51,649 nt of DNA. It comes from an uncultured Oscillospiraceae bacterium. Its GTDB lineage: Bacteria > Bacillota > Clostridia > Oscillospirales > Oscillospiraceae. Below the pieces are notes generated by a model. That model was given only the letters and a program-made list of their open reading frames with translations. It did no database searches and was not told the DNA's origin. Where the stretch lies: positions 1 to 51,649 of the forward strand of contig CALWYY010000045.1 in assembly GCA_944385885.1 (NCBI GenBank), read 5' to 3'. This document shows positions 8,180-50,792 of this stretch, piece by piece. Position 1 is the first letter of the stretch. Each line of letters starts with the position of its first letter. Position numbers and translations under genes: made by a program.

Positions 8180-9268
8180 ATGGACGAGCTGAGAGCGCTT
8201 TTGGAGACAATCCGGCCTCTGGACGCCGGCGCCATGGAAGCCGCCCGGGCCTGGCAGGCGCGCCTTGCTAAGCCGCCGGGGAGCCTGGGGAAACTGGAAG
8301 ATATTGCCGTGCGTCTGGCGGGGATTACCGGACGGGTGCACAACACTCTCCGGGACAAGCGCATTTTGGTTTTCTGCGGGGACAACGGGGTAGTGGAAGA
8401 AGGTATCGGTTCGGCCCCTCGCACCGTTACCGCCGCCCAGGCGGTGAATATGACCCGCTATTGTACCGGCATGTCCGCCATGGCCCGGTATTTTGGGGAC
8501 CGGGTAGTGGTGGTGGATGTGGGGATTGCCGATCCTTACGACTGTCCGGAGATCCTCTGCCGGAAGATCGCCTCCGGCACCCGGAATCTGTGCCGGGAGC
8601 CGGCCATGACCCGGCAGGAGACGATGCAGGCTATCCGAACCGGGTGGGAGACGGCGGTGGAGAATGCCCAGGATGGCGCGGATGTGCTGGGAATCGGAGA
8701 GATGGGCATAGGAAACACCACCACCTCCGCGGCGGTGCTGTCGGCTTTGACGGGCCTTGACCCGGCGGAAGTGACCGGACGGGGCGGCGGGATTACCGAC
8801 GAGAGCTTTGCCCGAAAAAAGGAAGTTGTGGCCCGTGCCTTGGCATTGCACCGGCCACGGCGGGAAGATCCGGTGGACGTTCTTTCCAAAGTGGGCGGCC
8901 TGGACCTGGCGGCCATGTGCGGGGCCTTTCTGGGCGCGGCTGCCGAACGGCGCCCGGTAGTGGCGGACGGCTTTATTTCGGTGGTAGCCGCCCTGTGCGC
9001 CGCCCGCCTGTGTCCGGCTGTGGGGGAGTATGTGTTTGGTTCCCATGCCTCGTTTGAGCGGGGCTACGCGGCCGCCGCAGCCGAGCTGAAGCTGGAGCCC
9101 TGGCTGCGGCTGGATATGCGGCTGGGAGAGGGGAGCGGCTGCCCCCTGGCCTTTGAGGTGATGGACGCCGCCTGCGCCGCAGCCAATGGTATGGCCACTT
9201 TTGAAGGGGCTGCCATTGACGACGGGTACCTGGACGCCATCCGGGGAAAGGATTGCTTTACCGTATGA
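8180..9268 (+). CDS. cobT: Nicotinate-nucleotide--dimethylbenzimidazole phosphoribosyltransferase
   Basis: The 362-aa protein matches CobT over its full length: LAKPPGSLGKLE near the N-terminus, CGDNGVVEEGI, a GIGEMGIGNTT segment, and C-terminal RLGEGSGC carrying the catalytic Glu. CobT transfers phosphoribose from nicotinate mononucleotide to the lower-ligand base, giving the alpha-ribazole phosphate of the cobamide nucleotide loop. It is followed by cobU with an ATGA overlap. The operon has no bluB-like gene in view, so the base may be taken up or made elsewhere. Confidence 0.96.
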   Translation: MDELRALLETIRPLDAGAMEAARAWQARLAKPPGSLGKLEDIAVRLAGITGRVHNTLRDKRILVFCGDNGVVEEGIGSAPRTVTAAQAVNMTRYCTGMSAMARYFGDRVVVVDVGIADPYDCPEILCRKIASGTRNLCREPAMTRQETMQAIRTGWETAVENAQDGADVLGIGEMGIGNTTTSAAVLSALTGLDPAEVTGRGGGITDESFARKKEVVARALALHRPRREDPVDVLSKVGGLDLAAMCGAFLGAAAERRPVVADGFISVVAALCAARLCPAVGEYVFGSHASFERGYAAAAAELKLEPWLRLDMRLGEGSGCPLAFEVMDAACAAANGMATFEGAAIDDGYLDAIRGKDCFTV

Positions 9269-9804
9269 CCATTTTCATATCCGGTGGGTGCAAAAACGGA
9301 AAATCCACTCTGGCGGAGGAAATGGCCCGGCGTCTGGCAGGGTCCGGGAACCTGTACTATGTGGCCACCATGATCCCGCAGGACGGGGAGGACATGGAGC
9401 GGATTCGCCGGCATGTGCGCCAGCGGGCGGGAAAGGGGTTCCAAACGCTGGAGCAGGGAAGACGGCTGGAGGATTGCTTAGACGGTGCGTGCCAGGACGG
9501 GACATTTTTGGTGGACAGTGTTACGGCTCTTCTGGCCAATGAGATGTTCCCGGCCGATGGGCCCTGGGACCTGCAGGCGGGGGAACGGACGGCTCAGGAG
9601 TTATGCCGTTTTGCCGGACGGGTTAAGAACGCCGTGTTTGTGGGCGATTTTCTCTTTTCTGACGCTGGGATATACGACGGCCCCACGGAGGAATACCGCC
9701 GGGCGCTTGCCCTATGCCACCGCCGGCTGGCGGATGTGTGCGATTCGGTGGTGGAGGTATGTGCCGCCTGCTGTATTCTGCACAAGGGAGTGATGCCCGA
9801 ATGA
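9265..9804 (+). CDS. cobU: Adenosylcobinamide kinase / adenosylcobinamide-phosphate guanylyltransferase
   Basis: The ATG at 9265 overlaps the cobT stop (ATGA); an in-frame TTG 12 nt upstream is less likely. The 179-aa protein has the P-loop GGCKNGKST at its N-terminus, the RRHVRQR segment with the His that is guanylylated in the family, and DSVTALLANEM. It phosphorylates adenosylcobinamide and then forms AdoCbi-GDP. This is the intact CobU copy; a shorter degenerate paralogue lies at 10569. It overlaps cobS by four bases. Confidence 0.94.
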   Translation: MTIFISGGCKNGKSTLAEEMARRLAGSGNLYYVATMIPQDGEDMERIRRHVRQRAGKGFQTLEQGRRLEDCLDGACQDGTFLVDSVTALLANEMFPADGPWDLQAGERTAQELCRFAGRVKNAVFVGDFLFSDAGIYDGPTEEYRRALALCHRRLADVCDSVVEVCAACCILHKGVMPE

Positions 9805-10553
9805 GACGGGCGGTGACGGGATTCTTTATGGCCTGGGGGATGTTTTGGATCGTCCCGTGTCCGCTTCGGCGCTGGGACGAACAGGCACGGCCGTTTATGC
9901 TGCTGTTCTTACCGTGGATTGGACTGCTCCTGGGTGGGGCGTGGGGGGTATGCGCTTGGGCCTTTGCCGGGGCGGAGACTCCCTTGATCCGGGCAGCGGT
10001 GCTTACGGCATTGCCGCTTGTTCTGTCTGGATTCATCCATCTGGATGGGTATATGGACTGCGCGGATGCGGTTTTGTCCCGCCGTGACCTGGACACCCGG
10101 CGGAGCATTTTGAAAGACTCCCATGTGGGAGCCTTCGGAGTGATCGCCGTGGGCATACTGCTTTTGCTGGAGTTTGCCCTGCTGTCGGAGACAGATCTGA
10201 CAGGGCGGCGGCTGCTGTGCCTGGTATTTATCCCGGCGGCGGCGCGGGCCAGTGCGGCGGCAGCGGTGCTTACTCTGCATCCCCTGCCTACCAGCAGCTA
10301 TGCCCGGGCAGGAACCAGAGATGTGCCGGGGGCGTTCCGGATGGCGGCTTTTTTGAGCATGGCGCTGTTTGCCGCAGCTGCCGCGGTGGTGTGCGGCTGG
10401 CCGGGGCTGTGCTGCGCTGCCGCCGGCGAGGCGGGGGCCTGGGCGGCTATGGGGTACATCTACCGAGATCTGAAGGGAATGTCCGGGGATGTGTCCGGAG
10501 CCGGGATTACTGTTGGGGAATTGTGCGCACTGGCTGTGCTGGCGGCAGTGTAA
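9801..10553 (+). CDS. cobS: Adenosylcobinamide-GDP ribazoletransferase (cobalamin synthase)
   Basis: The start at 9801 overlaps the cobU stop by ATGA; longer readings would run through cobU. The 250-aa membrane protein has several hydrophobic segments and the conserved HLDGYMDCADAV motif, whose acidic residues bind Mg2+, followed by RRSILKDSHVGAFG. CobS joins AdoCbi-GDP with alpha-ribazole (phosphate) at the cytoplasmic membrane, the last assembly step. Gene order cobT-cobU-cobS fits the nucleotide-loop pathway. Confidence 0.94.
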   Translation: MRRAVTGFFMAWGMFWIVPCPLRRWDEQARPFMLLFLPWIGLLLGGAWGVCAWAFAGAETPLIRAAVLTALPLVLSGFIHLDGYMDCADAVLSRRDLDTRRSILKDSHVGAFGVIAVGILLLLEFALLSETDLTGRRLLCLVFIPAAARASAAAAVLTLHPLPTSSYARAGTRDVPGAFRMAAFLSMALFAAAAAVVCGWPGLCCAAAGEAGAWAAMGYIYRDLKGMSGDVSGAGITVGELCALAVLAAV

Positions 10554-10568
10554 AACGGAGGGCAAAGG

Positions 10569-10928
10569 ATGGATTTTGTGATTGGCGGCGCCTGGCAGGG
10601 GAAGCTTGCCTATGCAAAGGAGACTTTCCAGCTGGCACAGGAGGATATCTTTTACTGCACCAGGCAGGACATGCCGGATTGGTCCCGGCGCTGTGTGGCT
10701 GGGTTGGAGGAATACGTTCTGGGCTGTATACAGCGGGGAGAGGCGTGGCAGCTGCGCCCCCGGGCGGATGCGGTATTGATTTGCCGGGATATTTTCTGCG
10801 GTGTCGTGCCTGTGGAAGCGCCGCTTCGTCTGTGGCGCGAGGAAACGGGACGGATGGCGGCAGAGATTGCCCGTCAGGCGGATACGGTTACGCGGCTGTT
10901 TTGCGGCCTGGCCCAACGCTTGAAATGA
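10569..10928 (+). CDS. Short CobU-like protein with degenerate P-loop
   Basis: The 119-aa protein starts with VIGGAWQGKLAYAKE, which lines up with the CobU P-loop but has Leu where the Ser/Thr of GK(S/T) should be. Its C-terminus (GVVPVEAPLRLW...VTRLFCGLAQRLK) matches the GxGVVP and G-L-P-x-x-L-K ends of CobU/CobP. The central part with the guanylylated His is shortened; length is about two thirds of CobU. It lies between cobS and cobC, 15 nt after cobS. Phosphoryl transfer is doubtful; nucleotide binding, scaffolding or a partial guanylyltransferase role are all possible. Confidence 0.75.
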   Translation: MDFVIGGAWQGKLAYAKETFQLAQEDIFYCTRQDMPDWSRRCVAGLEEYVLGCIQRGEAWQLRPRADAVLICRDIFCGVVPVEAPLRLWREETGRMAAEIARQADTVTRLFCGLAQRLK

Positions 10929-11533
10929 GAAGGGTTGTCCTGCTCCGTCATGGGAGCACCCAGGCCAACGAGAGGGGACTCTACTGCGGCAGCACGGATC
11001 TGCCCTTGTCTCCCGCCGGGAGAGAGGAGCTGATGCGGCTGCGCCAGACAGGGGGATACCCGGACTCCAATGGGTTCCGCCTGGTAACCAGCGGCCTGCG
11101 CCGGGCGGCGGAGACAATGGAAATCCTTTTCGGGCCGGGAGAATATTTTGTGGTTCCCGGCCTGCAAGAGATGGATTTCGGCGATTTCGAACTACGCGGG
11201 TATGAGGAGCTTCGGAAAGATTCTGCCTATTGTCTCTGGTGTTCCGGGGATAACCGGCAGAACCGGGCACCCAACGGGGAGAGCGGGGAAGATATGCGCC
11301 GCCGGGTACTGGAGGCGTTCCGGACCTTGTTGTCCGCCGGGGATTTTTTGGCCGTGCTCCATGGGGGGCCTATTGCGGCCATTATGGAGGAACTGTTTCC
11401 AGAGCAGGGGCGGACCAGGTACCAGTGGCAGCCAGGCAACGGCCGGGGATATGAATTGGCCATAGACGAAACCGGAAAAGCGTGGTATCGTAGAATACCG
11501 GAGGGGAAACGGCATGAGTGGGAAGACAAATAA
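10925..11533 (+). CDS. cobC: Alpha-ribazole phosphatase (histidine phosphatase family)
   Basis: The start at 10925 overlaps the upstream stop by ATGA. The 202-aa protein has the histidine phosphatase signature LLRHGSTQANERG with the phospho-accepting His, the GSTDLPLSPAGREE segment, a SGLRRAAETM Arg-containing motif and the second His in VLHGGPI. Placement after cobT, cobU and cobS makes alpha-ribazole-5'-phosphate or cobalamin-5'-phosphate the likely substrate. The last 20 nt overlap the next gene. Confidence 0.88.
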   Translation: MRRVVLLRHGSTQANERGLYCGSTDLPLSPAGREELMRLRQTGGYPDSNGFRLVTSGLRRAAETMEILFGPGEYFVVPGLQEMDFGDFELRGYEELRKDSAYCLWCSGDNRQNRAPNGESGEDMRRRVLEAFRTLLSAGDFLAVLHGGPIAAIMEELFPEQGRTRYQWQPGNGRGYELAIDETGKAWYRRIPEGKRHEWEDK

Positions 11534-36773: not shown

Positions 36774-37103
36774 ATGGGAGAGACAGAGCCGGCCCTGACG
36801 GCGGGGACCCGGACCACCGGGGACGGCCATCGGCATACGCACACGCACCAGAATACGAAAATCGTAAAAAACCGCCTGGCCCGTGTCATTGGCCACCTGC
36901 ACGCGGTGGAGCGGATGATCGACGATGGACGGGATTGCTCGGAGGTGCTTATCCAGCTGGCCGCCGTGCGAAGCGCTCTAAGCAACATCTGTAAGATTAT
37001 CTTGAAAGACCACATGGACCACTGCATCGTGGACGCGGTGCTTACAGGGGACCAGGACACCCTACGGGAACTGGACCGGGCAATCGACCTTCTGATGAAA
37101 TAA
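36774..37103 (+). CDS. csoR: CsoR-type copper-sensing repressor
   Basis: The 109-aa protein belongs to the CsoR/RcnR (DUF156) family. Cys55, His80 and Cys84 have exactly the C-x24-H-x3-C spacing of Cu(I)-binding CsoR. The N-terminus has a His-rich stretch (GHRHTHTHQ) not usual in the core family, which could bind extra metal. No copper exporter is adjacent; downstream are a Pro/Thr-repeat protein and K+ uptake genes with short gaps. The ATG has GGGGAGG upstream. Confidence 0.85.
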   Translation: MGETEPALTAGTRTTGDGHRHTHTHQNTKIVKNRLARVIGHLHAVERMIDDGRDCSEVLIQLAAVRSALSNICKIILKDHMDHCIVDAVLTGDQDTLRELDRAIDLLMK

Positions 37104-39934: not shown

Positions 39935-42199
39935 TTACAGGTACATGGCCAGGTTGTACGCCGCCTTGGTGGCGCCCCAGACCAGGCCGGCCTCAAAGGA
40001 ATCGCCGATATTGTAGACCTCCTTTGCCACATGCTCCTTTTGGCCCTCCAGGTACTGGGAGATATCCGCCCGGCGGCCCAGGGCATTGACAAACAGATCT
40101 GCGTGGTACTCCTCAACCACGGTTTCAGGGCCCATCTTGGGCGCCAGGGGATTTTCAATGTTTTTGGGAAGCACCGGCGTCCAGGTGCAATACGGATCCG
40201 GCGCTCCCTTAGAGATGTTCCGGCTGACAAACACCTTGCCGGGCTCAAAGGACTTAATAGTGGCGCAGTTGACCAGCCGGGCGCCGTTTTGCTCGATGTA
40301 GTGGATGAGGAAGCCCCGGTTGGCCGTGCAAGCGCCTTCCATAAAGTCGCCCAGCATATCAATGACGGTAATCCGGCAACCCTTTTCATAGCTCAGCCAG
40401 TAAGCGGTTTCCATACCAACGGCGCCGCCGCCCAGCACTACCACATTCTTGCTCTCGCCCAAAAGCTCCGGCTTACACAGGAGCTCGGTAGCCTCTACCA
40501 TGTTCACGGTATCGATACCGGGAATGGGCGGCGAGGCGCGCTTAGCCCCCACGGCATAGACCACCGCGTCGTAGTTCTGGGCCTTCAGGTACTCGGTGGT
40601 GGCATCCACGCCCAGGCGGATCTCCACCCCGGGCTGGGAAGCGACTTGGCGCTTGAGCCACTGCATATAGTTGGCCATATCATACTTGTTTTTGGGAACG
40701 GCCGCAGCATTGGCAATGCCGCCCAGCTCGCCGCTCTTTTCCAACAGTTCCACTTTATGGCCTCTCTGCGCCGCATAGAGGGCAAAATTCATGCCCGCCG
40801 GGCCGCCGCCGACTACACCGATTTTCTTGGGCACAGGAGCGGGAGGCATCACCTTCGGCAGCACATCCTCATGGCCGGTACGGGGATTAACTGCGCACTG
40901 GGGATGTCCGCCTTCCACAAACTCGTTGATGCAGCCTTCCTGGCAGCCGATGCAGGGCCGGATCTTGTCCACATCTCCAGCATAGGCCTTTTTGCACCAT
41001 TCCGGATCGGCCAGGACCGGCCGGCCCAGCATGATCATATCGCACCTGCCGTCCCGCAGGGCCTGCTCGTCCATGTCGGGATAGTTCAGCTTTCCTACCG
41101 CCACGATGGGAACGTCATATCCGGCGTTGGATTTAATCCCTTTTTCCTTGAAATATTCTTTGGCTACTTTGGCCACATCCAGGAAGCAGCCGGCGGGCAT
41201 ATAGGCCGGGGGATGGGGCAGCCACCAGTTGTCATAGCAGCCCAGGTCCACGTCAAATATATCTACCCCCGCTTTGACCAGGTTTTCCATATAGTCCAGG
41301 GTCTCGTAAATGCTCCGGCCATTTTTGAAATTCTTAAGGGTCTTGACGGTGTCCATCCGTCCGCCGTAGGTCTCCTCCAGGGCGCAGGACAGGTCGATCC
41401 GGTACATGATGGGGTACCAGGGATCGGTGCGCTTACGGATCTCCTTGACGGCATCAATGCCAAAGCGCTGCCAGTCGGCATACTTGCCCAGCTTCCGGCG
41501 GTTGAAGGCGGTGTTGGTCATCTGGTCCAGCAGATACCCCTCGTGGCCGTGCAGATAAACGCCGTCCAGGCCCATGGCCTTGGCGTCGGCGGCCCCCTGG
41601 CCGAAGTTCTTCACGATCCGGTTCAGCTCCAGATCCGTCAGCGGCCGGCAGGGAATTCCGGGTATGTAGAAGTTGGGGTTCCAGGAGGCGGATACAGGGG
41701 GGGTGAACTTGGTCAGGAGACACTGCGGGTTGCCTACGCGCCCCAGGCCGGCCGTCAGCTGGATAAAAATGCGGCTGTTACGGGCATGTACTCCCTGGGC
41801 AAGATCGCGCCAGCCCATGAAATTCGTCCGCGTAGCGTCGATGCGGGGAAAGTAGGAGAAGTTGCCTTTTTCCGTGACGGAAGGCTCGATGTGATGGCTA
41901 ATGGGGATCAAGCCTGTGGTCAGAAGGCCCACGCCGCCCTCCGCCCGCGCAAAGAAATACTCCCGCATCTTGTCATTGGGCCGTCCCGTTTCGTCCGCCA
42001 TCTGGACGTTGCCCATGGGGGCCATAACAAGACGGTTTTTGATGGTGAGGCGGTTTACCTGGATGGGGGAAAACATCGTGTCGTAAGGCCATAGCTCTTT
42101 GGTGTAGCGGGCGGTGCCGCCCGGCTGGTTCTCGCAATCCTGCTGTACCCAGTTGCCGTAGCTGTTTACAAGCCTTTCGACCAACACATCGGTTTTCAA
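39935..42199 (-). CDS. NADH:flavin oxidoreductase / 2,4-dienoyl-CoA reductase-like Fe-S flavoprotein
   Basis: The start is TTG at 42199, with GAGG upstream. The 754-aa protein has an FMN-binding TIM barrel (residues about 40-400, NRLVMAPMGN start), a 4Fe-4S motif CIGCQEGCINE with a later Cys (PQCAVNP), a FAD-binding VVGGGPAGMNFALY and a NAD(P)-binding VLGGGAVGMETAYW. This is the FadH/2-enoate reductase architecture (usual length about 640-680 aa), here with an N-terminal extension of about 40 residues. Such enzymes reduce C=C bonds conjugated to carbonyls or enoyl-CoA. It shares a divergent control region with the dehydratase-like cluster. Substrate unknown. Confidence 0.88.
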   Translation of the reverse strand: MKTDVLVERLVNSYGNWVQQDCENQPGGTARYTKELWPYDTMFSPIQVNRLTIKNRLVMAPMGNVQMADETGRPNDKMREYFFARAEGGVGLLTTGLIPISHHIEPSVTEKGNFSYFPRIDATRTNFMGWRDLAQGVHARNSRIFIQLTAGLGRVGNPQCLLTKFTPPVSASWNPNFYIPGIPCRPLTDLELNRIVKNFGQGAADAKAMGLDGVYLHGHEGYLLDQMTNTAFNRRKLGKYADWQRFGIDAVKEIRKRTDPWYPIMYRIDLSCALEETYGGRMDTVKTLKNFKNGRSIYETLDYMENLVKAGVDIFDVDLGCYDNWWLPHPPAYMPAGCFLDVAKVAKEYFKEKGIKSNAGYDVPIVAVGKLNYPDMDEQALRDGRCDMIMLGRPVLADPEWCKKAYAGDVDKIRPCIGCQEGCINEFVEGGHPQCAVNPRTGHEDVLPKVMPPAPVPKKIGVVGGGPAGMNFALYAAQRGHKVELLEKSGELGGIANAAAVPKNKYDMANYMQWLKRQVASQPGVEIRLGVDATTEYLKAQNYDAVVYAVGAKRASPPIPGIDTVNMVEATELLCKPELLGESKNVVVLGGGAVGMETAYWLSYEKGCRITVIDMLGDFMEGACTANRGFLIHYIEQNGARLVNCATIKSFEPGKVFVSRNISKGAPDPYCTWTPVLPKNIENPLAPKMGPETVVEEYHADLFVNALGRRADISQYLEGQKEHVAKEVYNIGDSFEAGLVWGATKAAYNLAMYL

Positions 42200-42342: not shown

Positions 42343-42418
42343 ATGATGGAATTATTCCTGGGGTTATGTTGCTTTTTTAACAAAAAAGTGGTAAGTGTTG
42401 GAAAGAGGAGACGAGAAA

Positions 42419-43180
42419 ATGGGCGGAGCAAAAGTTATCGCGGTATCTGGCAAGGGTGGTGTTGGAAAAACGACACTTGCCGGGGCAATGGTACGGCGGC
42501 TGACCGAGGCAAAGCCGCAGGCACGGATTTTGGCCATAGACGCGGACCCGGCAGTGGGGCTGTCCACCTGCTTAGGGGTGGAGGTTCGCCTGACGTTGGA
42601 CGACATTCGCAAGACCATCATCGACAACGTGGAGGAGGGCCGCACAAAAGAGGCGCTGGAACTGGTGGAGGAGTCCCGGTTTCGGATTTTTGACGCGCTG
42701 GTGGAGACCAACGGCTTTGCTTTTTTGGCCATCGGACGCCCGGAAGCCACCGGGTGCTACTGCAAAATCAACGCCTACCTGAAAGACGTGATTTCCGTAC
42801 TGGCCGACCAGTTCGACTATGTGGTAGTGGACGGGGAAGCGGGGATTGAACAGGTCAACCGCCGGGTACTGGAGCGTGTGACCCATCTTCTTCTGGTCAC
42901 CGACCAGAGCCGCAAGGGGGTTCAGGTGGCCGGCACCATTAAGAAGGTTGCGGATGATCTGGTGATGTACGACCGGATCGGCGCCGCGGTCAACCGGGTC
43001 ACCAATCCCGATCTGAACCAGTATATTGCCATTCCCGGCGTCGAGATCCTGGCCTATATTGGCTCCGATGAGCATCACGCGGCCAACGACATCCGGGGCC
43101 GGAGCGTTTTTGATCTGCCGCCGGAATCCAACGTGTACCGGGGAGCCGGAGAGATCCTGGAGAAATTCGGGCTTTTGTAA
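42419..43180 (+). CDS. CooC-like MinD-family ATPase with CxC motif
   Basis: ATG 42419 has GAGGAG 8 nt upstream; the 253-aa protein begins KVIAVSGKGGVGKTTLAG, the deviant Walker A of MinD/ParA ATPases with the signature Lys. A second switch is IDADPAVGLST. Cys113 and Cys115 in TGCYCKIN match the CxC motif with which CooC dimers bind Ni or Zn. CooC/AcsF proteins load Ni into CO dehydrogenase or acetyl-CoA synthase. No such enzyme is in the window, but an ACS-like domain protein ends this cluster. A role in assembling or gating the neighbouring Fe-S proteins is inferred. Confidence 0.85.
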   Translation: MGGAKVIAVSGKGGVGKTTLAGAMVRRLTEAKPQARILAIDADPAVGLSTCLGVEVRLTLDDIRKTIIDNVEEGRTKEALELVEESRFRIFDALVETNGFAFLAIGRPEATGCYCKINAYLKDVISVLADQFDYVVVDGEAGIEQVNRRVLERVTHLLLVTDQSRKGVQVAGTIKKVADDLVMYDRIGAAVNRVTNPDLNQYIAIPGVEILAYIGSDEHHAANDIRGRSVFDLPPESNVYRGAGEILEKFGLL

Positions 43181-43241: not shown

Positions 43242-44438
43242 TTGAAGGATCTTAAGCATCTGATCTACTTTGAAAAGCTCCTGGAGGATGCCAACAACGA
43301 GCTGGTGCGAAAAGCGCAGGAGTCCGGGAAACTTGCTATGGGCTACACCTGCTACCACGTCCCCGAGGTGCTTCTCAACGTAGACAACTGTTTCTCCGTT
43401 CGGCTGAGGGCCCCGAACACGGGTTCCATTGAGATCGCGACCTATTACATGTCCAACTATACCTGCGAATACGCCCGGGCTCTGACGGAGAGGGCCATTG
43501 AGGGGGGATATCAGTTCCTGGACGCCATGCTGGGCGTGGACGCCTGTTCCATGATGAACCGTGCCATGGAGCACTTCGGTATCCTACAGGTCAACGACAA
43601 GCCCAATTTCTTTGTGACCCACGCGGATATACCGTTTAAAATTACCGACTACGCGCTGGACGCCTACGTAAAGCAGATGCGGCTGCGGGTACTGGGGCAG
43701 ATGCATGAAAAGTACGGGGTGGACGTATCCGATGCCGCCATACGCAAGGCGCTAAAGACCCACAACGAGGTCTGCCGGATTCTGACGGAGCTGGGCCAGC
43801 TGCGGAAGCTGGAGAATCCGCCTATCACCGGATACGAGTACCACGTGATGAACGTAGTATCCTACTGCTGTCCCAAGGAGCTGATCCTGCCCTACCTGAA
43901 GGAGACCCTTACGGAGGTAAAGCGGCGCAAGCCGGACGCCAAGCCCTGGTACCGGGCCCGGGTAGCCATTGTGGGCAGCGAAATCGACGATCCATCCCTG
44001 ACGAAGCTGATCGAGGGCTGCGGCGCTTTTGTGGTCTCCGACCGCTACTGCTTCGGTTCCACCCCTGGACGGGAGGTTATCGAGATTAACGACCAGGAGG
44101 ATGCGCTCACCCAAATTTGCCGCCACTATCTGGAGCATTCCGAGTGTGCCCGGTACATATCCGATGAAAAAGTCAAGCAGCGCCGGGAAACGTCGGACCG
44201 GCTGGCCCGGGAGTATAACGCCGAGGGGATCATTTACGAGCAGATGAAATACTGCGACTACTGGGGCTTTGAGCGGGCGCTGGTGAGCCATGTGATGGCC
44301 GAGGAATATAACTGGCCAATTCTTTCGATTGACCGGCTGTACAACAACGGCAACTCCGGCCAGCTTCGCACCCGGGTACAGGCCTTTGTGGAGTCCCTGG
44401 AGATCAAGCGCATCCGCAAAGAGGGAGGTAAGGACTGA
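43242..44438 (+). CDS. 2-hydroxyacyl-CoA dehydratase / benzoyl-CoA reductase family, smaller subunit
   Basis: The start is TTG at 43242 with AAAGGGG upstream (in-frame GTG before it is followed by a stop). The 398-aa protein has the HgdB/BcrC pattern of cluster-binding Cys: Cys37 (GYTCYHVPE), Cys75 (NYTCEYAR), Cys102 (VDACSMMNR, in place of the usual S-C-D-G) and Cys338 (MKYCDYWGFE). These enzymes use a 4Fe-4S or double-cubane cluster, powered by an ATP-driven activase, for radical dehydration or reduction of acyl-CoA. The family also has members of unknown substrate. Its 3' end overlaps the next ATG by one base. Confidence 0.85.
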   Translation: MKDLKHLIYFEKLLEDANNELVRKAQESGKLAMGYTCYHVPEVLLNVDNCFSVRLRAPNTGSIEIATYYMSNYTCEYARALTERAIEGGYQFLDAMLGVDACSMMNRAMEHFGILQVNDKPNFFVTHADIPFKITDYALDAYVKQMRLRVLGQMHEKYGVDVSDAAIRKALKTHNEVCRILTELGQLRKLENPPITGYEYHVMNVVSYCCPKELILPYLKETLTEVKRRKPDAKPWYRARVAIVGSEIDDPSLTKLIEGCGAFVVSDRYCFGSTPGREVIEINDQEDALTQICRHYLEHSECARYISDEKVKQRRETSDRLAREYNAEGIIYEQMKYCDYWGFERALVSHVMAEEYNWPILSIDRLYNNGNSGQLRTRVQAFVESLEIKRIRKEGGKD

Positions 44439-46225
44439 TGGCAAAGACCCCGAAATACCCCAATCCCGCGTTTTTCCGCGCCAAAAACAATATAGACTGG
44501 GCGGCGCAGGGGAAGAACCTAAAGGAAGTTTTTGAAATCTGCAAGGATATGCTGGCGGAGACCGACTGGAAGCAGTTTGCAAACCGGCAGGTCAAGGGCT
44601 GGAAGGACTTTGGGGCCCGGGCGGCAGAGGAATATCGGGCGTTCATGGACAGCCCCCGGCAGGAAAAAATTGACGCCATCCTCCACGGGGAAAAGCACCT
44701 GGGGCGCCTGTACAAGTCCGGCGCCATGGCAACCGTGCGCCGGGAGTGGCGGGGTATTGGCGACACAGCGTACGATTTCGGCCGCTGGCTCAAGACTTGG
44801 GGCATGCTCCTGGCCACCTTCAGCAAGGATTTGGTACCGGCCCTCAACGCGGCGCTGTATTACCGGTGGATGATCTCCTATTTCTGCTGCCACTCCTTCA
44901 TGGATAAGAACACCATGGGCCAGCGGGGAGCGGCCCTGCGCATGAGCCATCTGATGATCTTCGATATATTCCGCTATGTTGCGGAGAACCTGGTCCTCCA
45001 GGCCAAGGGCGACCGGAAAAATGGCAACAGCGCGGAGCTGAACAAGAAGGTCGTCCTCTTCGACGAGATGACCATGGCGCAGATTATGGCCGGGTTCCCC
45101 GATCTGATTGGCATACCCTACCAGCTGTTTGCGGTGTTCCTGGTCTCGGAGATCGACCAGCTTACCTGTGTGCCGTACATTGACGCGGTGGAGAGCTTCG
45201 GCCTGCCGGCGGACACCTGCCCGGTGCCCTCCAGCGAATGCGGCGCCATTGTCCTGGACGCCCTTCCCCACATGGGCACGTGCTTTATCTCCAGCTCCAT
45301 GCCCTGCGACGGCTCCACTATGGCCTCCTCCTATGTGGCCCGCCGTTTTCCGGATCTGCCGGTATTCCATCTGTGCTTCCCGGTACGGTACGAGGATGAG
45401 GAGACGGTGCAGTGCGCGGCTGAGGATATCAAGGCCTGTATCCGCTTTATTGAGGAGCAGACGGGTGCCAAGTGGAATTGGGACGCCTATTTTGCCGCCA
45501 TGAAGCGCTTTAACCGGGAGACAGCCTACGAGATGGAGAAATGGAGCGTCAACCAGACGCCCTATCCCCAGATTATTGGCCCGTGCTACGAGCTCTACCG
45601 GAAGTGGAGCTATGAGATGGACGGCGGGGTGGATCCCCGGAGCATCAAGACGTTTGAAAAGGTCAACAAGATTATGCTCAAGGCCTATCAGCGTAAGGAG
45701 GAGGCTTGGCCCGGGAAGATGCGCTACCGCGCCATTGTGTGGTCCTGCCCGGCCCATTACTATGCCAATTTCTCAAACTGGCTGGCCAACTGCTGGGGCA
45801 TCAACGTCCTGGTAGAGATGGAGAGCCTAAACTTTACCAAACAGCTGGAGACCCAGGACAAGGAAGAGGCTATGCGTGACCTGGGCCGGCTGTACGAGCG
45901 CATGGTCATGCGCCGGCATACCAACGGCGGGTACCGGCACGTGGTGGATGAGCTGTGGAAGCAGTGCGAGATATGGAACATTGACATCATTATCATGTAC
46001 CAGAACGTGGCGTGCAAAAACATGGCCACGTTGCAAGGAATCCTAGACGAACAGGCCCGGCAGCAGGACCGGCGAATGATCTGGATTGAACATGATCTGA
46101 TGGATCCCCGTACCGTTTCCCGGCGCGCCATGCGCGACAAAGTAAATAACTATATGCGTACCGTTATGAACGCCGAGCCGGTGGACCCGTCCCTGGTGGA
46201 CTTCGAGGACGACGTTACCTGGTAA
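44438..46225 (+). CDS. 2-hydroxyacyl-CoA dehydratase / benzoyl-CoA reductase family, larger subunit
   Basis: The 595-aa protein is longer than usual HgdA/BcrB subunits (about 400-480 aa) because of an N-terminal helical region of about 130-200 residues. The family core carries Cys261 and Cys268 (DTCPVPSSECG), Cys290 with Asp-Gly (MPCDGSTMASSY) and a late Cys (NVACKNMATL). It should form a heterodimer with the upstream product and receive electrons from the downstream activase. The start overlaps the upstream stop (TGATGG). The substrate is unknown; no CoA-transferase is adjacent, but an acyl-CoA synthetase is 2.8 kb downstream. Confidence 0.85.
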   Translation: MAKTPKYPNPAFFRAKNNIDWAAQGKNLKEVFEICKDMLAETDWKQFANRQVKGWKDFGARAAEEYRAFMDSPRQEKIDAILHGEKHLGRLYKSGAMATVRREWRGIGDTAYDFGRWLKTWGMLLATFSKDLVPALNAALYYRWMISYFCCHSFMDKNTMGQRGAALRMSHLMIFDIFRYVAENLVLQAKGDRKNGNSAELNKKVVLFDEMTMAQIMAGFPDLIGIPYQLFAVFLVSEIDQLTCVPYIDAVESFGLPADTCPVPSSECGAIVLDALPHMGTCFISSSMPCDGSTMASSYVARRFPDLPVFHLCFPVRYEDEETVQCAAEDIKACIRFIEEQTGAKWNWDAYFAAMKRFNRETAYEMEKWSVNQTPYPQIIGPCYELYRKWSYEMDGGVDPRSIKTFEKVNKIMLKAYQRKEEAWPGKMRYRAIVWSCPAHYYANFSNWLANCWGINVLVEMESLNFTKQLETQDKEEAMRDLGRLYERMVMRRHTNGGYRHVVDELWKQCEIWNIDIIIMYQNVACKNMATLQGILDEQARQQDRRMIWIEHDLMDPRTVSRRAMRDKVNNYMRTVMNAEPVDPSLVDFEDDVTW

Positions 46226-46277: not shown

Positions 46278-47084
46278 ATGGCTAAGAAATATTTTGCCGG
46301 CTGCGATGTGGGCTCTACCTATACGAAAGCGGTCATCCTGGACGAGGACGGGAACATTGTCGCCCATACCACCATCAAAAGCAAGATTAACTCCGAGCAG
46401 TCGGCCAAGATTGCCATGGACGAGGTCATCGGCCAGGTACCGGATCTGCAGTCCGCGGAGGATCTCACCTATCTGATCGGTACCGGCTACGGGCGCAACA
46501 AAGTCCCCTTTGCCGATGAGAACATCTCCGAGATCAGCTGCCATGCTATGGGGGTGCACGTGACGGATCCCACGGTAAAGGCCATTATCGACATCGGCGG
46601 CCAGGACGTGAAGGGCATCAGCATTGACGCCGATGGCACGGTAAAGAACTTTGCCATGAACGATAAATGCGCCGCCGGCACAGGCCGGTTCTACGAGGCT
46701 ATGGCCCGGTCCTTTGAAATGACCCTGCCGGAGTTTTCGGCCCTGTCCCTGAACGCGAAAAACGTAATCCCCATCACGGCCCAGTGCACCGTCTTTGCCG
46801 AGTCGGAGGTAATCACTCTGGTGGGAGAGGGCAAGCCCATGGATGAGATCGCCGCCGGCATCCAGATGGCCGTGGCCAAGCGGTGCTTCGTCATGGCCAA
46901 AAAAGCCGGCGCCACGGACAGCATTACCCTTACAGGCGGCTGTGCGAAGAATGCCGGCCTGAAACAGGCCATCGAGCATGTGCTGAAGCTTAAGGTCATT
47001 GATCTGAAAACCGATCCCCAGCTTATGGGCGCCCTGGGCGCCGCGGAATATGCCCGTCAGAAGGGTCTTGCGAAAGGAGCCTGA
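46278..47084 (+). CDS. Acyl-CoA dehydratase activase (HgdC/BcrAD/BadFG family)
   Basis: The 268-aa ASKHA ATPase has phosphate-1 motif CDVGSTYTKAV, phosphate-2 IIDIGGQDVK, the cluster-ligand Cys131 (NDKCAAGTGRF) and Cys170 (TAQCTVFAESE), and GGCAKNAGL in the adenosine site. In the family the homodimer holds one 4Fe-4S cluster between the two Cys of each subunit and fires a low-potential electron into the dehydratase/reductase on ATP hydrolysis. Length is normal for HgdC. GGGAGG lies 11 nt upstream. Confidence 0.95.
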   Translation: MAKKYFAGCDVGSTYTKAVILDEDGNIVAHTTIKSKINSEQSAKIAMDEVIGQVPDLQSAEDLTYLIGTGYGRNKVPFADENISEISCHAMGVHVTDPTVKAIIDIGGQDVKGISIDADGTVKNFAMNDKCAAGTGRFYEAMARSFEMTLPEFSALSLNAKNVIPITAQCTVFAESEVITLVGEGKPMDEIAAGIQMAVAKRCFVMAKKAGATDSITLTGGCAKNAGLKQAIEHVLKLKVIDLKTDPQLMGALGAAEYARQKGLAKGA

Positions 47085-47086
47085 AC

Positions 47087-47254
47087 ATGAAAAAGTTCTG
47101 GAAAATTTTTGGAAGGGTCGCCGGCATTCTTACGGCAGTCATCGGCGTTCTGTTTGTGGTCTACTTCTGGAATCTGGATCAGAAACTGATGGCCTGGGCC
47201 TATACCCAGGTAAACAAGATCTTTGACCGGAAGAAAGTGGACATTAAGTTCTGA
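47087..47254 (+). CDS. Small single-span membrane protein, 55 aa
   Basis: A 56-codon frame starts at ATG 47087 with AAAGGAG 7 nt upstream. The product has a basic start (MKKFWKIFGR), one hydrophobic helix (residues about 11-28), then an amphipathic C-terminal part ending in a basic KKVDIKF. It starts 2 nt after the activase stop and overlaps the next ATG, so it is translated as part of the cluster. It could anchor the neighbouring proteins at the membrane (inference). No family recognised. Confidence 0.8.
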   Translation: MKKFWKIFGRVAGILTAVIGVLFVVYFWNLDQKLMAWAYTQVNKIFDRKKVDIKF

Positions 47255-47976
47255 TGGAACTGTACAATTCCTACATTCAAGCCGCGGAGGAACTGCTGGC
47301 CGGTTCCTCCGTGGAACGATGGGACTATGACCCCGCCCGGTGCTGGCCGGATGTGGGGAGCAACGAGCTCGTAATGCAGCGGGAGGCCGCCTTTGAGCTG
47401 GGCGGGAGCGGGTCTCCGGCGGTGAGTTTTGCCTGTTTTACCACAGACGAAAAGCTCATTGGGCGGGATGAGGTATGGCTCTGCGGGCCTGACCTGGATC
47501 GGATTCGCGGCGACAGCCCCTTTGCTCGAATGGTATTTTTCTCTGTGCAGGACATTGGAGAGGCCGACGAGGCGTATCGGGCGATCCAGGAGATTGAGTT
47601 TGCCAAATACCACGTCCACCCCAAGGGCTATATGACCCGCGCCCTTTCAGAAGAATGCCGGGAGCAGGTGCGTGTCAGCCGCGCCGCTGTGAAGGAGGGC
47701 ATATCCTTCCGCCGCGTAGGTTTTGACTACATCCGGAAATACAAGGAAAATGAAAACGTCCGGAACGTGCGCGTCATTTTTCTCACCCGGCCGGATCTTG
47801 ATTACGGCGCCGTCCGGGAGGCTGGGAAAAAAGTGGGGGAGATCACCCGGTCCCTGAGCACAATCCTGGAGGGCATCCCAACCGACTGTGATTCCTGCGG
47901 CCTCCGGTCTATCTGCGACGAGGTGGAGGGGATGCGAGAGCTGCATTTTCGGCAGTCAGGCAAGAATCCAGGCTGA
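47254..47976 (+). CDS. Stand-alone protein resembling the middle domain of acetyl-CoA synthase (AcsB/CdhC), with C-terminal Cys motif
   Basis: The 240-aa protein aligns by eye with the region of AcsB just before the A-cluster. AFELGGSGSPA and VWLCGPDLDRI correspond to the MGGNRTPAFELV and VIGPDIDQI parts, VRVSRAAVKEGISFRRVG to LRVSKDAVAKGFRFKNYG, and VRVIFLTRPDLDYGAVREAGKK to the VQVTIFTDEAKV strand-helix. Where AcsB continues into its Ni-Fe A-cluster, this protein ends with Cys212, Cys215 and Cys221 (DCDSCGLRSIC) and stops soon after. It lacks the CODH-binding N-terminal domain and most of the A-cluster domain. Role unknown; metal or Fe-S binding is likely (inference). Confidence 0.72.
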   Translation: MELYNSYIQAAEELLAGSSVERWDYDPARCWPDVGSNELVMQREAAFELGGSGSPAVSFACFTTDEKLIGRDEVWLCGPDLDRIRGDSPFARMVFFSVQDIGEADEAYRAIQEIEFAKYHVHPKGYMTRALSEECREQVRVSRAAVKEGISFRRVGFDYIRKYKENENVRNVRVIFLTRPDLDYGAVREAGKKVGEITRSLSTILEGIPTDCDSCGLRSICDEVEGMRELHFRQSGKNPG

Positions 47977-48171: not shown

Positions 48172-49047
48172 ATGAGTAAAAAGAGACAGCGGCGGGGAGA
48201 CCGCCCGGACGGCGTTCTGATCCGAGACCTGGACTCGCTCCACTTTATAACGGCCATCATATACCCAAACCGGTGTGATAACGAGGCTTTCATTTCTGAG
48301 CGGATTGATTTGACCCGGATTAACGAATATCTGGAGCGGAAAAATGCGGACAATCCGGATTACAAGTACAACCTGTTTCAGATCATCGTCACAGCCTTGG
48401 TCAAGACAATCACCCTCCGGCCCAAAATGAACCGGTTTATAGTTAACAGCAATTTTTACCAGCGCAAGGAGGTTTCCGCCGCCTTTGTGGTGAAAAAGCT
48501 TTTTGCCGATCAGGGGGCGGAGGCGCTAGCCTTTCTGCACTTGAAGGATGACGACACCCTGGACACGATTCACCAGCGTATCTACGAGCAGGTAAGCACC
48601 TGCCGGTCTGACAAGGTGGACAATTCCACCGGCGCCATGGACATACTTAACAAGCTGCCCCGGTGGATATCCAAGACCGCCGTGCGCATCCTCATGTTGT
48701 TGGACCGGCACGGGCGTATTCCCCAGGACATCATTGCCACGGACCCCTACTATTCCTCGGTGGTGCTCTCCAACCTGGGTTCTATTAAAATGAAGAGCGG
48801 CTACCATCATCTCACGAACTGGGGTACCTGTTCCATGATCTGCCTGATCGGGGAGATCCGGAAAACGCCGGTTTACGACGACGATGGCAATGCTACCATG
48901 GTTCCCACGGTGGACATTGGGCTGACCATTGACGAGCGCCTGGCGGACGGCTATTACTACGCCAAGACCATGCGCTTGCTGCGGAAGCTGCTGCAAAATC
49001 CGGAGCTTTTGGAGCTCCCTCTGGGAGAGAAGGTGGATTACGAATGA
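48172..49047 (+). CDS. 2-oxoacid dehydrogenase E2-like acyltransferase domain protein lacking the catalytic His
   Basis: ATG 48172 has AGAGGA upstream. The 292-aa protein matches the E2/CAT acyltransferase fold: LFQIIVTALVKTITLRPKMN, SNLGSIKMKSGYHHLTNWG and the C-terminal motif region. It has no lipoyl or E1/E3-binding domain. The E2 active site D-H-R-x-x-D-G reads DERLADG here, so the general-base His is Glu. The gene overlaps the acyl-CoA synthetase by ATGA. It may bind acyl-CoA without classical transfer, or catalyse by another residue. Confidence 0.82.
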   Translation: MSKKRQRRGDRPDGVLIRDLDSLHFITAIIYPNRCDNEAFISERIDLTRINEYLERKNADNPDYKYNLFQIIVTALVKTITLRPKMNRFIVNSNFYQRKEVSAAFVVKKLFADQGAEALAFLHLKDDDTLDTIHQRIYEQVSTCRSDKVDNSTGAMDILNKLPRWISKTAVRILMLLDRHGRIPQDIIATDPYYSSVVLSNLGSIKMKSGYHHLTNWGTCSMICLIGEIRKTPVYDDDGNATMVPTVDIGLTIDERLADGYYYAKTMRLLRKLLQNPELLELPLGEKVDYE

Positions 49048-50792
49048 CGGAAAACACAGCTGCGGTTTCGGTAAAGGCACCCTGGCTTTCCCACCTGGGG
49101 GATATGCCAGCAACACTGGACTATTTCCAGGGTTCCATGTACGAAGCGGTGGAGAAGATTGCGGCGAAATACCCGTCCAATGTAGCCTTTGACTTTATGG
49201 GCCGGTCTACGACTTACCGGGAATTGATTCAGAACATCCAGCGCTGTGCAAAAAGCCTGCGCACCATTGGGGTTCGGGAGGGGGACCGGATCACCATTGC
49301 CATGCCGAACTGCCCGCAGGCGATCTATATGTTCTATGCGGTAAATTTGGTGGGCGGCATTGCAAATATGGTGCATCCTCTTTCCAGCGAGAAGGAGCTG
49401 GAGTTTTATATCAACGAGTCGGAGAGCGTTTCAGTGGTGACGCTGGATCAGTTTTACCACAAATTTGAAGCGATCCGGCAGAACACCCGGGTGGTAAACG
49501 TGATTCTGGCCCGGATCCGGGACGCCCTATCCCGACCGGTACGTGCGGGATACATGCTCACAGAGGGACGCAAGATTGCCAAAATCCCGGAGGATGCCCC
49601 GGTGATATTTTGGAACGATTTTATGCGCCTAGGAAAATGCTGTTTTTGGAACTACAAAGTGCCCCGGCGGGGGGAGGACCCGGCGGTCATTCTATACTCC
49701 GGCGGCACCACCGGCGTCACGAAAGGAATCCTTCTGACAAATCTTAACTTCAACGCCTTGGGCCAGCAGATCGTAGCTACAAACCCCATGTTCCGGCCGG
49801 GAGACCGAATGCTGTCGGCTATGCCGCTGTTTCATGGATTTGGCCTGGGGGTGTGTATCCACTCCATGCTCTCCCAGGGCGGGCGGTGCATCCTGGTACC
49901 CCGGTTTACCGCTAAGAGCTATGCCAAGCTTATCACCCGGTATAAGTGTAACTTTATTGCCGGCGTACCCACTCTTTATGAGGCGTTGCTCCGCCTGCCG
50001 TCCATGGACAAAGCCGATCTCTCCAGCCTAAAGGGCGTATTCTCCGGCGGGGACTCTTTGTCCGTGGAGCTGAAGAAGAAGCTTGACAAGTTTCTGTATG
50101 CCCATAACGCCGTCATTCAGGTGAGGGAGGGATACGGCACTACAGAGACCGTTACCGCCTGCTGTCTGACGCCTCCTCATATGTTCAAGGAGGGGAGCAT
50201 CGGGCTTCCATTTCCGGATACGTTTATCAAAATTGTCAAACCCGGCACCGAGGAAGAGCTTCCCTATGGAGAGGAAGGGGAGATCCTTCTGGCAGGGCCA
50301 ACTGTTATGCGGGAGTATGTGAAGCACCCGGAGGAGACGGCGGAAACACTTCGTCTCCATCAGGATGGGCTGCGCTGGGTCTATACCGGCGATTTGGGCA
50401 AGATGGATGAGGAAGGGTTTGTGTATTTCCGGGGACGGATCAAGAGGATGATTGTCACCTCCGGCTACAACGTGTACCCGGCGCAGCTGGAGAATATCCT
50501 GGATGCCCACGAGTTTGTCCATATGAGCTGCGTAATCGGCGTACCGGACTCGTATCGGATGCAGCGTGTCAAAGCGTTTGTGGTGCTGCGTCCAGGTGTG
50601 CCTCCCACAGAGGAAACCCGGGAGACCATTATGGCCTACTGCCGAAAAAACATTGCCAAATATGCTATGCCAAAGGAAATTGAATTTCGTGAGGACCTCC
50701 CCAAGACGCTGGTGGGGAAGGTCGCTTACCGAAAATTGGAAGAGGAGGAACTGGAAAAGCTCCGTCAGGAGCAAGAGCCTTCCCAGGCCTGA
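49044..50792 (+). CDS. AMP-dependent acyl-CoA synthetase / ligase
   Basis: The 582-aa adenylate-forming enzyme has A3 YSGGTTGVTKGILLTN, A5 REGYGTTETV, A7 YTGDLGKMDEEG, A8 FRGRIKRMIVTSGYNVYP and A10 LPKTLVGKVAYRKL with the catalytic Lys. The overall form resembles medium/long-chain fatty acyl-CoA ligases. A stretch of about 60 residues (after FYHKFEAIRQ) before A3 is longer than in many ligases. It activates a carboxylic acid to acyl-CoA via acyl-AMP. It overlaps the E2-like gene, so the two act together. Substrate unknown. Confidence 0.9.
   Translation: MTENTAAVSVKAPWLSHLGDMPATLDYFQGSMYEAVEKIAAKYPSNVAFDFMGRSTTYRELIQNIQRCAKSLRTIGVREGDRITIAMPNCPQAIYMFYAVNLVGGIANMVHPLSSEKELEFYINESESVSVVTLDQFYHKFEAIRQNTRVVNVILARIRDALSRPVRAGYMLTEGRKIAKIPEDAPVIFWNDFMRLGKCCFWNYKVPRRGEDPAVILYSGGTTGVTKGILLTNLNFNALGQQIVATNPMFRPGDRMLSAMPLFHGFGLGVCIHSMLSQGGRCILVPRFTAKSYAKLITRYKCNFIAGVPTLYEALLRLPSMDKADLSSLKGVFSGGDSLSVELKKKLDKFLYAHNAVIQVREGYGTTETVTACCLTPPHMFKEGSIGLPFPDTFIKIVKPGTEEELPYGEEGEILLAGPTVMREYVKHPEETAETLRLHQDGLRWVYTGDLGKMDEEGFVYFRGRIKRMIVTSGYNVYPAQLENILDAHEFVHMSCVIGVPDSYRMQRVKAFVVLRPGVPPTEETRETIMAYCRKNIAKYAMPKEIEFREDLPKTLVGKVAYRKLEEEELEKLRQEQEPSQA

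Follow-up and report, generated by a model that had tools for sequence, protein, structure and literature searches.

The class I benzoyl-CoA reductase (BCR) of the Bzd type, BzdNO, combines a small subunit carrying a six-cysteine double-cubane cluster, a large subunit carrying a three-cysteine [4Fe-4S] cluster and an ATP-dependent activase. The [8Fe-9S] ligands of BzdN are Cys36, 73, 100, 263, 293 and 327; those of the [4Fe-4S] cluster of BzdO are Cys95, 128 and 380, and the acid/base groups are Glu65 and His131 (PMC11971306). The fold, the activase and the three-cysteine site recur in the 2-hydroxyacyl-CoA dehydratases (HAD; HadBC), and the double-cubane cluster proteins (DCCP) share the six-cysteine pattern and are activase-driven. 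A different kind of system is the nickel maturation of carbon monoxide dehydrogenase (CODH), for which CooC, CooT and CooJ are described as accessory proteins and in which CooC1 holds metal through Cys112 and Cys114 (PMC6006190). Here we describe an operon that resembles both systems, in a stretch of 51,649 nucleotides (hereafter, the window) from an uncultured Oscillospiraceae bacterium (contig CALWYY010000045.1). It encodes, in this order, a CooC-type ATPase, a small and a large subunit of the BCR/HAD/DCCP superfamily, an activase, a 55-aa protein with a single transmembrane (TM) segment and a relative of domain 2 of acetyl-CoA synthase (ACS).

How might these genes work together? Our best reading, which we hold tentatively, is that of a membrane-tethered, ATP-driven reductase or dehydratase that would receive nickel by a CODH-type maturation and might pass its product to an alkene reductase. 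The best-supported guess, itself a tentative one, is that the enzyme contains nickel, as the association of genes suggests. A literature search, most subscription journals lying outside its reach, found no description of this operon among the papers listed.

A nickel-type accessory set in genomes without CODH

The closest solved protein to the ATPase was CooC1 (E = 5.5e-15, with the CYC motif aligned), the next match reaching 4.2e-7. The deviant Walker A motif GKGGVGKT and the CYC motif occurred together in all 79 ATPase sequences aligned, which carry two cysteines as CooC1 does with Cys112 and Cys114. Searches of small open reading frames (ORFs) in 104 sequence sources, some of them from one genome, detected the CooT family in 24 and a histidine-rich family in at least 26, with the two no more than 0.5 kb apart in 23; the second count is a lower bound, since the query from locus L072 was not among its own matches, probably as a result of its ORF start. 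The loci that we named are the best 80 of at least 578 relative-encoding stretches; they are the closest relatives and not independent of one another; in the 20 of them that span at least 21 kb, CooT was found in 15 and the histidine-rich gene in 14. Both of the relatives' CooT proteins that were scanned passed the cut-off of PF10133 (61 and 60.1 bits against 27) and begin with Met-Cys, as expected of a CooT with Cys2. The histidine-rich proteins (L072:13581-13874, L115:4101-4436 and others), four of which were scanned without a Pfam match above cut-off, are CooJ-like by their histidine-rich character alone. They share a conserved, helical-looking tail resembling LLKYMxxHNxHHAEEL and are usually encoded beside CooT.

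The difference from the CODH maturation set lies in the company that these genes keep: they stand beside a BCR-like pair, and no match to CODH was found in seven of the ten system-carrying genomes searched, including that of the window. In these seven genomes the ATPase would have no CODH to serve, and on the same count we rejected a CODH operon whose CODH had been lost only in the window. In 295 genomes of the order (the order, class and phylum counts in this study each include the window's own genome), CODH was present above cut-off in 11, CooT in 11 and the system in five, and the system and CODH never occurred together; some CODH match was obtained in 68 genomes, and the 11 above cut-off are those counted. 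CooT was present in six of the 11 CODH genomes. When these 11 were set aside, it was found in three of the five genomes with the system versus two of the 279 without it (one-sided Fisher p = 2.6e-5).

A [NiFe] hydrogenase was also considered as a client for nickel and rejected, PF00374 matching in three of ten genomes and covering only about 70 of 508 positions. The window further encodes, at 36774-37103 (+), a CsoR-type metal-sensitive repressor (PF02583, 2e-24) whose N terminus has a short stretch containing histidine; in L054, too, a CsoR-like gene is found close to the operon (PF02583, 2.4e-26), and L051 has a look-alike.

Conserved cluster ligands in a separate subfamily

As read from the alignments, the activase, the double-cubane ligands of the small subunit and the three-cysteine site of the large subunit are intact. 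The small subunit matches PF06050 across most of its length (E = 8.2e-91), and its Cys37, 75, 102, 270, 302 and 338 align with the six ligands of BzdN. We counted residues in 132 large-subunit and 127 small-subunit sequences, excluding identical rows and ORFs below 60% of full length: C270, C302 and C338 are present in all 127, and C37 (125/125), C75 and C102 (126/126 each) wherever the row has a residue. Similarly, Cys261, Cys290 and Cys526 of the large subunit correspond to the [4Fe-4S] ligands of BzdO, C261 and C290 in all 132 rows and C526 in all 129 that have a residue there. The six-cysteine pattern is incomplete in HadC and MbdN. The first-pass annotation had taken D-A-C-S in the small subunit, in place of a conserved S-C-D-G, for a change at the cluster site. 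Because all six ligands are conserved, it is no such change, and we dropped lost or altered ligands from consideration. The cysteine concerned, C102, aligns with BzdN Cys100, where BzdN itself reads Q-S-C-I; C-D-G at this position is the wording of DCCP, and S-M-P-C-D-G-S is found in the large subunit itself.

The surroundings of the large-subunit site differ from those of BzdO. D291-G292-S293 follows C290, placing Ser293 where BzdO has His131; the register at BzdO Cys128/129 is uncertain by one residue, and neither register gives a histidine. Ser293 is present in 131 of the 132 rows. The closest candidate for Glu65, by eye, is E238, a position with glutamate in 85 of 132 rows and histidine in 32. 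The large subunit also carries a family-specific Cys452. The sole exception at S293 and C452, as at E103, E267 and W435, is L128, a distant sequence outside the subfamily.

Where does this pair belong? The best NCBIfam model for both subunits was that of the double-cubane reductase, NF040772, with 36.9 bits for the large and 141.1 for the small subunit against a cut-off of 350; unlike DCCP, the system consists of two unlike subunits. For the large subunit this was the sole NCBIfam match at E <= 0.001. The BzdN, BcrC and HadC models all scored below NF040772 with the small subunit (BzdN 77.6 bits against 453.8, HadC 71.5 against 700), and the NCBIfam scan of the two subunits reached no equivalog cut-off. 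In a tree of 31 rows (11 of 59 large subunits, core only, 14 small subunits, and solved chains as references), the small subunits formed one clade (100/100; stem 1.46), weakly placed beside BzdN (84/68), and the large subunits another (100/100; stem 1.92), grouped with HadB and MbdO. HadC paired with MbdN and HadB with MbdO, and both clades of the new family stood apart on long branches, which calls for caution over long-branch effects. The references were HadBC, MbdNO, BzdN and DCCP, only part of the chain being used for HadB and for MbdO; BzdO, HgdAB, LcdAB and BcrBC were left out. Within this reference set neither subunit nests in a characterised substrate clade, a placement that would have refuted the annotation's idea of an unusual substrate. 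The earlier suggestion of an atypical substrate is thus partly supported, through the separation of both clades from HadBC, MbdNO, BzdN and DCCP and through the unreached equivalog cut-offs, with Ser293 and, as set out below, the place of the extension and the make-up of the neighbour clusters pointing the same way, although the reason first given for it, an altered cluster site in the small subunit, was wrong.

A helical extension standard within the subfamily

The large-subunit ORF of 595 codons, which begins on the final base of the small-subunit gene, was confirmed; its sole Pfam match is HGD-D (PF06050, residues 247-569, E = 4.3e-32). The loops were poor in a first structural model, built from 11 sequences (predicted local distance difference test, pLDDT, 74), and a second, from 59 sequences, was confident (pLDDT 88.9, predicted template modelling score, pTM, 0.90). 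Structural alignment with VIA-align 2 superposed residues 162-583 of the model onto 8-436 of BzdO (Z 25.6; 401 residues, 3.1 A), 168-579 onto HadB (Z 25.4) and 164-580 onto MbdO (Z 25.1); these three alignments span 382-401 residues, and the top row from other superfamilies reached Z 6.2. Solved BzdO, HadB and MbdO match the model from residue 161-168 onwards, and DCCP from 125-129. The N-terminal helical region that had been pointed out in the annotation was therefore borne out: in the model, residues 1 to about 125-162 are an addition relative to the solved large subunits, and mostly helical. The first 80 or so residues of the extension are variable; REWRG (102-106), D109, T110, R143 and W144 are among the large-subunit residues that 90% or more of the 59 sequences share. 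Among the matches listed from structure searches with the whole model, none was restricted to the N-terminal region, a result that has no bearing on whether its fold is new.

The same annotation held that the protein exceeds the usual length of its family. This is correct relative to the solved chains, which have 408-447 aa, and incorrect within its own clade: among 81 relatives with at least 69% identity, 56 have 591-598 aa, 21 are longer as measured from the first possible start, and the four shorter ones are truncated at contig ends. Because 595 aa is the usual length in its clade, a recent fusion or local peculiarity was dropped as the source of its length. The large subunit is no oddity but an ordinary representative of a subfamily of which we found no description.

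In BzdNO, according to a figure legend, an N-terminal helix formed by residues 15-32 contributes to CoA binding (PMC11971306); the legend names no subunit, and we take the helix to be that of BzdO. Going by where the aligned ranges begin, the extension joins the core right before the counterpart of this helix (model helix 164-191). Because the two abut, we infer from the model that the extension may act at the CoA entrance.

Organization and distribution of the operon

The arrangement of the window operon, whose coordinates are collected in Table 1, is strongly conserved. Wherever a named locus extended far enough, the gene in question was there: that of the ATPase upstream (71/71), that of the small subunit (75/75) and that of the activase downstream (49/49). 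The family of the single-TM protein gave 96 matches in 66 of the 104 sources, with a member no more than 1.6 kb downstream of 83 of the 85 large-subunit genes with room for one (the exceptions being L076 and L082). The ACS-like gene occurred in 36 of 40 eligible named loci and was missing from L076, L078, L082 and L102. Its profile matched solved ACS chains at residues ~332-473 (E from 7.6e-7 to 1.7e-6 for the best four), and overall the 240-aa protein spans only residues ~331-478 of chains more than 700 residues long. It thus has no counterpart of the A-cluster domain, the A-cluster presumably lying beyond this stretch. Its C-x2-C-x5-C motif was present in all 44 rows with residues there.

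Table 1. Coordinates of the operon and of flavoprotein genes near it or near related pairs (positions refer to the window unless a locus is named)
Feature	Position	Strand	Remarks
OYE-family flavoprotein (BaiCD/bilirubin-reductase-like)	39935..42199	-	Divergent neighbour of the operon
CooC-type MinD ATPase	42395..43180	+	Deviant Walker A GKGGVGKT, CYC metal motif; begins at or slightly after 42395
Small subunit	43242..44438	+	398 aa; Cys 37, 75, 102, 270, 302, 338 as in the BzdN [8Fe-9S] site
Large subunit	44438..46225	+	595 aa, of which 1 to ~162 form the helical extension and ~162-583 the BzdO/HadB-like core
ATP-hydrolysing activase	46278..47084	+	TIGR00241; Cys131, Cys170 in 66/66 rows
55-aa single-TM protein	47087..47254	+	Stop overlaps next start; best 19-residue hydropathy 2.36
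Stand-alone relative of ACS domain 2	47254..47976	+	CdhC, PF03598; C-terminal CxxCx5C
IsrA-like flavoproteins (isoprene-reductase type by domains)	L033:4713-8093, L133:13269-16521		HypB or HypA-like neighbours beside pairs

In a species-level genome collection, relatives were encoded by at least 578 of 595 pattern-matched stretches. The sources are mainly metagenome-assembled genomes labelled Oscillospiraceae, Ruminococcaceae, Lachnospiraceae, Butyrivibrio or Mogibacterium, often from the rumen or gut, and a few of the records look like isolates. Two carriers of the operon, Butyrivibrio sp. XPD2006 (L115) and Lachnospiraceae bacterium FE2018 (L079), appear culturable from their records. A full-size relative was present in five of the 295 genomes of the order (any match in 11, six of which were weak and to the shared domain), and a relative at E <= 1e-20 in seven of 391 genomes of the class; the 398 genomes of the phylum yielded the window's own and two weaker partial matches. 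Several pairs may occur in one genome: two in that of the window, three in G071 and four in G286. The other pair in the genome of the window (G000:C44:4280-7302, locus L030) is followed by a single-TM protein of its own, and in the 20 kb searched around it there was no match to the ATPase, the activase or the ACS-like gene.

Flavoprotein and CoA-related neighbours

A divergently oriented gene of the old yellow enzyme (OYE) family stands next to the operon in the window and in L039, L041, L042 and L043, and the OYE-family cluster was represented in 22 of the 80 named loci. Other relatives have a different flavoprotein nearby. In G595, an IsrA-like gene directly follows the operon, together with a gene that by eye resembles hypA; in G071, HypB (PF02492) and an IsrA-like protein are encoded upstream of a small/large pair. 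IsrA of Acetobacterium is described as a putative alkene (isoprene) reductase that is thought to require nickel (PMC10134865). The likeness of these two loci to IsrA with HypA/HypB rests on domain make-up and length, and IsrA itself lies outside the BCR/HAD/DCCP superfamily. These neighbours fit, and do not prove, a scheme in which an unsaturated compound is formed or reduced by the pair at the membrane, with the reduction then finished by a flavoprotein.

Operons for (R)-2-hydroxyacyl-CoA dehydratases are expected to contain a CoA transferase. By eye we recognised no CoA ligase or transferase among the 30 commonest neighbour clusters of the system, although no transferase query was used. Two genes lie right after the window operon, at 48172-50792 (+): one is acyltransferase-like, with a 2-oxoacid dehydrogenase catalytic domain, and the other encodes an AMP-dependent acyl-CoA ligase, for which the 80 named loci gave no counterpart. 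Elsewhere in the window we noted by eye the C-terminal part of an apparent molybdopterin oxidoreductase, ending at the contig end (50971-51648, -), and apparent genes for late cobalamin synthesis, CobT, CobU, CobS and CobC (8180-11533, +).

Proposed mechanism and alternative explanations

The nickel, the tethering to the membrane and the nature of the substrate are all points that we infer, and the following scheme is offered on that footing. By analogy with the family, the activase would use ATP hydrolysis to send low-potential electrons, one at a time, by way of the [8Fe-9S] cluster to the cluster with the open site in the large subunit. Gene association suggests that the CooC-type ATPase, joined in many relatives by CooT and the histidine-rich CooJ-like protein, loads nickel into the enzyme, the most probable place being the large-subunit cluster or its vicinity. 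The 55-aa TM protein may anchor the small/large pair to the membrane, and the helical extension may cap or replace the CoA entrance. The substrate would be hydrophobic and reach the enzyme with no dedicated CoA ligase to deliver it, and an unsaturated product could be further reduced by an OYE- or IsrA-type flavoprotein encoded nearby.

Several observations weigh against this reading. The genome of the window, which is 89% complete in 187 contigs, gave no CooT, and neither did G145, G595 or G490; the Fisher comparison rests on few and related system genomes, five in all, of which three belong to one family. Cys452 ends a helix before a strand, by topology opposite the C526 loop, and is no obvious nickel ligand. 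The ligase and the acyltransferase-like gene adjoin the window operon, so CoA chemistry is possible there, and CooC relatives could aid the building of iron-sulfur clusters without nickel. One alternative explanation, which we regard as a serious contender, short of an even chance, is a plain iron-sulfur enzyme of the BCR/HAD type acting on a CoA ester, in which the CooC-type ATPase helps to fold or assemble the double cubane or the active-site cluster nickel-free and CooT and the histidine-rich protein serve other neighbours. Every published ligand is kept, as such an enzyme would have it, and for the published BzdNO structure no clusters other than iron-sulfur ones are described (PMC11971306). 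CooC, too, has been described as acting additionally as a folding chaperone, and the Rhodospirillum rubrum protein as one that does not bind nickel tightly (PMC6006190). The absence of CooT from four of ten system genomes and the acyl-CoA ligase downstream in the window point the same way. Against it stands the near confinement of CooT, in the CODH-less genomes of the order, to carriers of the system, as do the lack of a counterpart to that ligase in the named loci and the failure to recognise, by eye, a CoA ligase or transferase among the commonest neighbour clusters. The system also departs from BzdNO in its extension, its TM partner, the serine in place of His131, the CooC-type ATPase and the ACS-like protein, and its small subunit forms a clade of its own in a tree without BzdO.

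The TM partner that follows nearly all large-subunit genes, and the several pairs within one genome, would also suit a lipid-modifying reductase in the style of the plasmalogen synthase PlsA/PlsR, which would reduce an ester or alkene of a membrane lipid at the membrane surface. We consider this improbable: plsA-plsR alone yielded plasmalogen in Escherichia coli with no nickel set (PMC12838417), and supplying electrons would be just as plausible a role for the TM protein. A small-molecule reductase or reactivating system, DCCP-like or concerned with CO, CO2 or acetyl chemistry, in which the ACS-domain-2-like protein would be the true partner of the nickel set, seems very improbable. It would account for the double-cubane reductase being the best, if sub-threshold, NCBIfam match of both subunits and for the ACS-related partner gene. 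That partner, however, is absent from four of 40 eligible loci and has no A-cluster domain, and multiple pairs per genome suggest multiple organic substrates. Returning to the nickel-dependent, membrane-tethered reductase, we find its most specific form unlikely as a whole: the first nickel-dependent member of the BCR, hydroxyacyl-CoA dehydratase and double-cubane group, with a CODH-like Ni-Fe-S site (through CooC, CooT and the CooJ-like protein) in a BCR fold, fed by ATP through the double cubane, tethered to the membrane, acting on a substrate other than a CoA ester, and with several paralogous pairs sharing one maturation/activation operon across gut and rumen Clostridia.

Implications

The set of nickel-type accessory genes, together with the ACS-like protein, is more telling than the features that had first drawn attention to the large subunit. 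For specialists, the surprise would lie in genomes without CODH that unite a double-cubane reductase with CODH-type genes for nickel insertion and a protein derived from ACS. These proteins are little-known, oxygen-sensitive iron-sulfur enzymes of gut and rumen bacteria, and the association of genes suggests a nickel-dependent, membrane-tethered reductase. To our knowledge, few classes of nickel enzyme have been recognised. If the reading is true, a conserved nickel-insertion set beside a strong-reductant enzyme in CODH-less genomes would point to a new class, widespread in animal guts, and the unexplained 'dehydratases' of Butyrivibrio and Oscillospiraceae would gain a testable chemistry.

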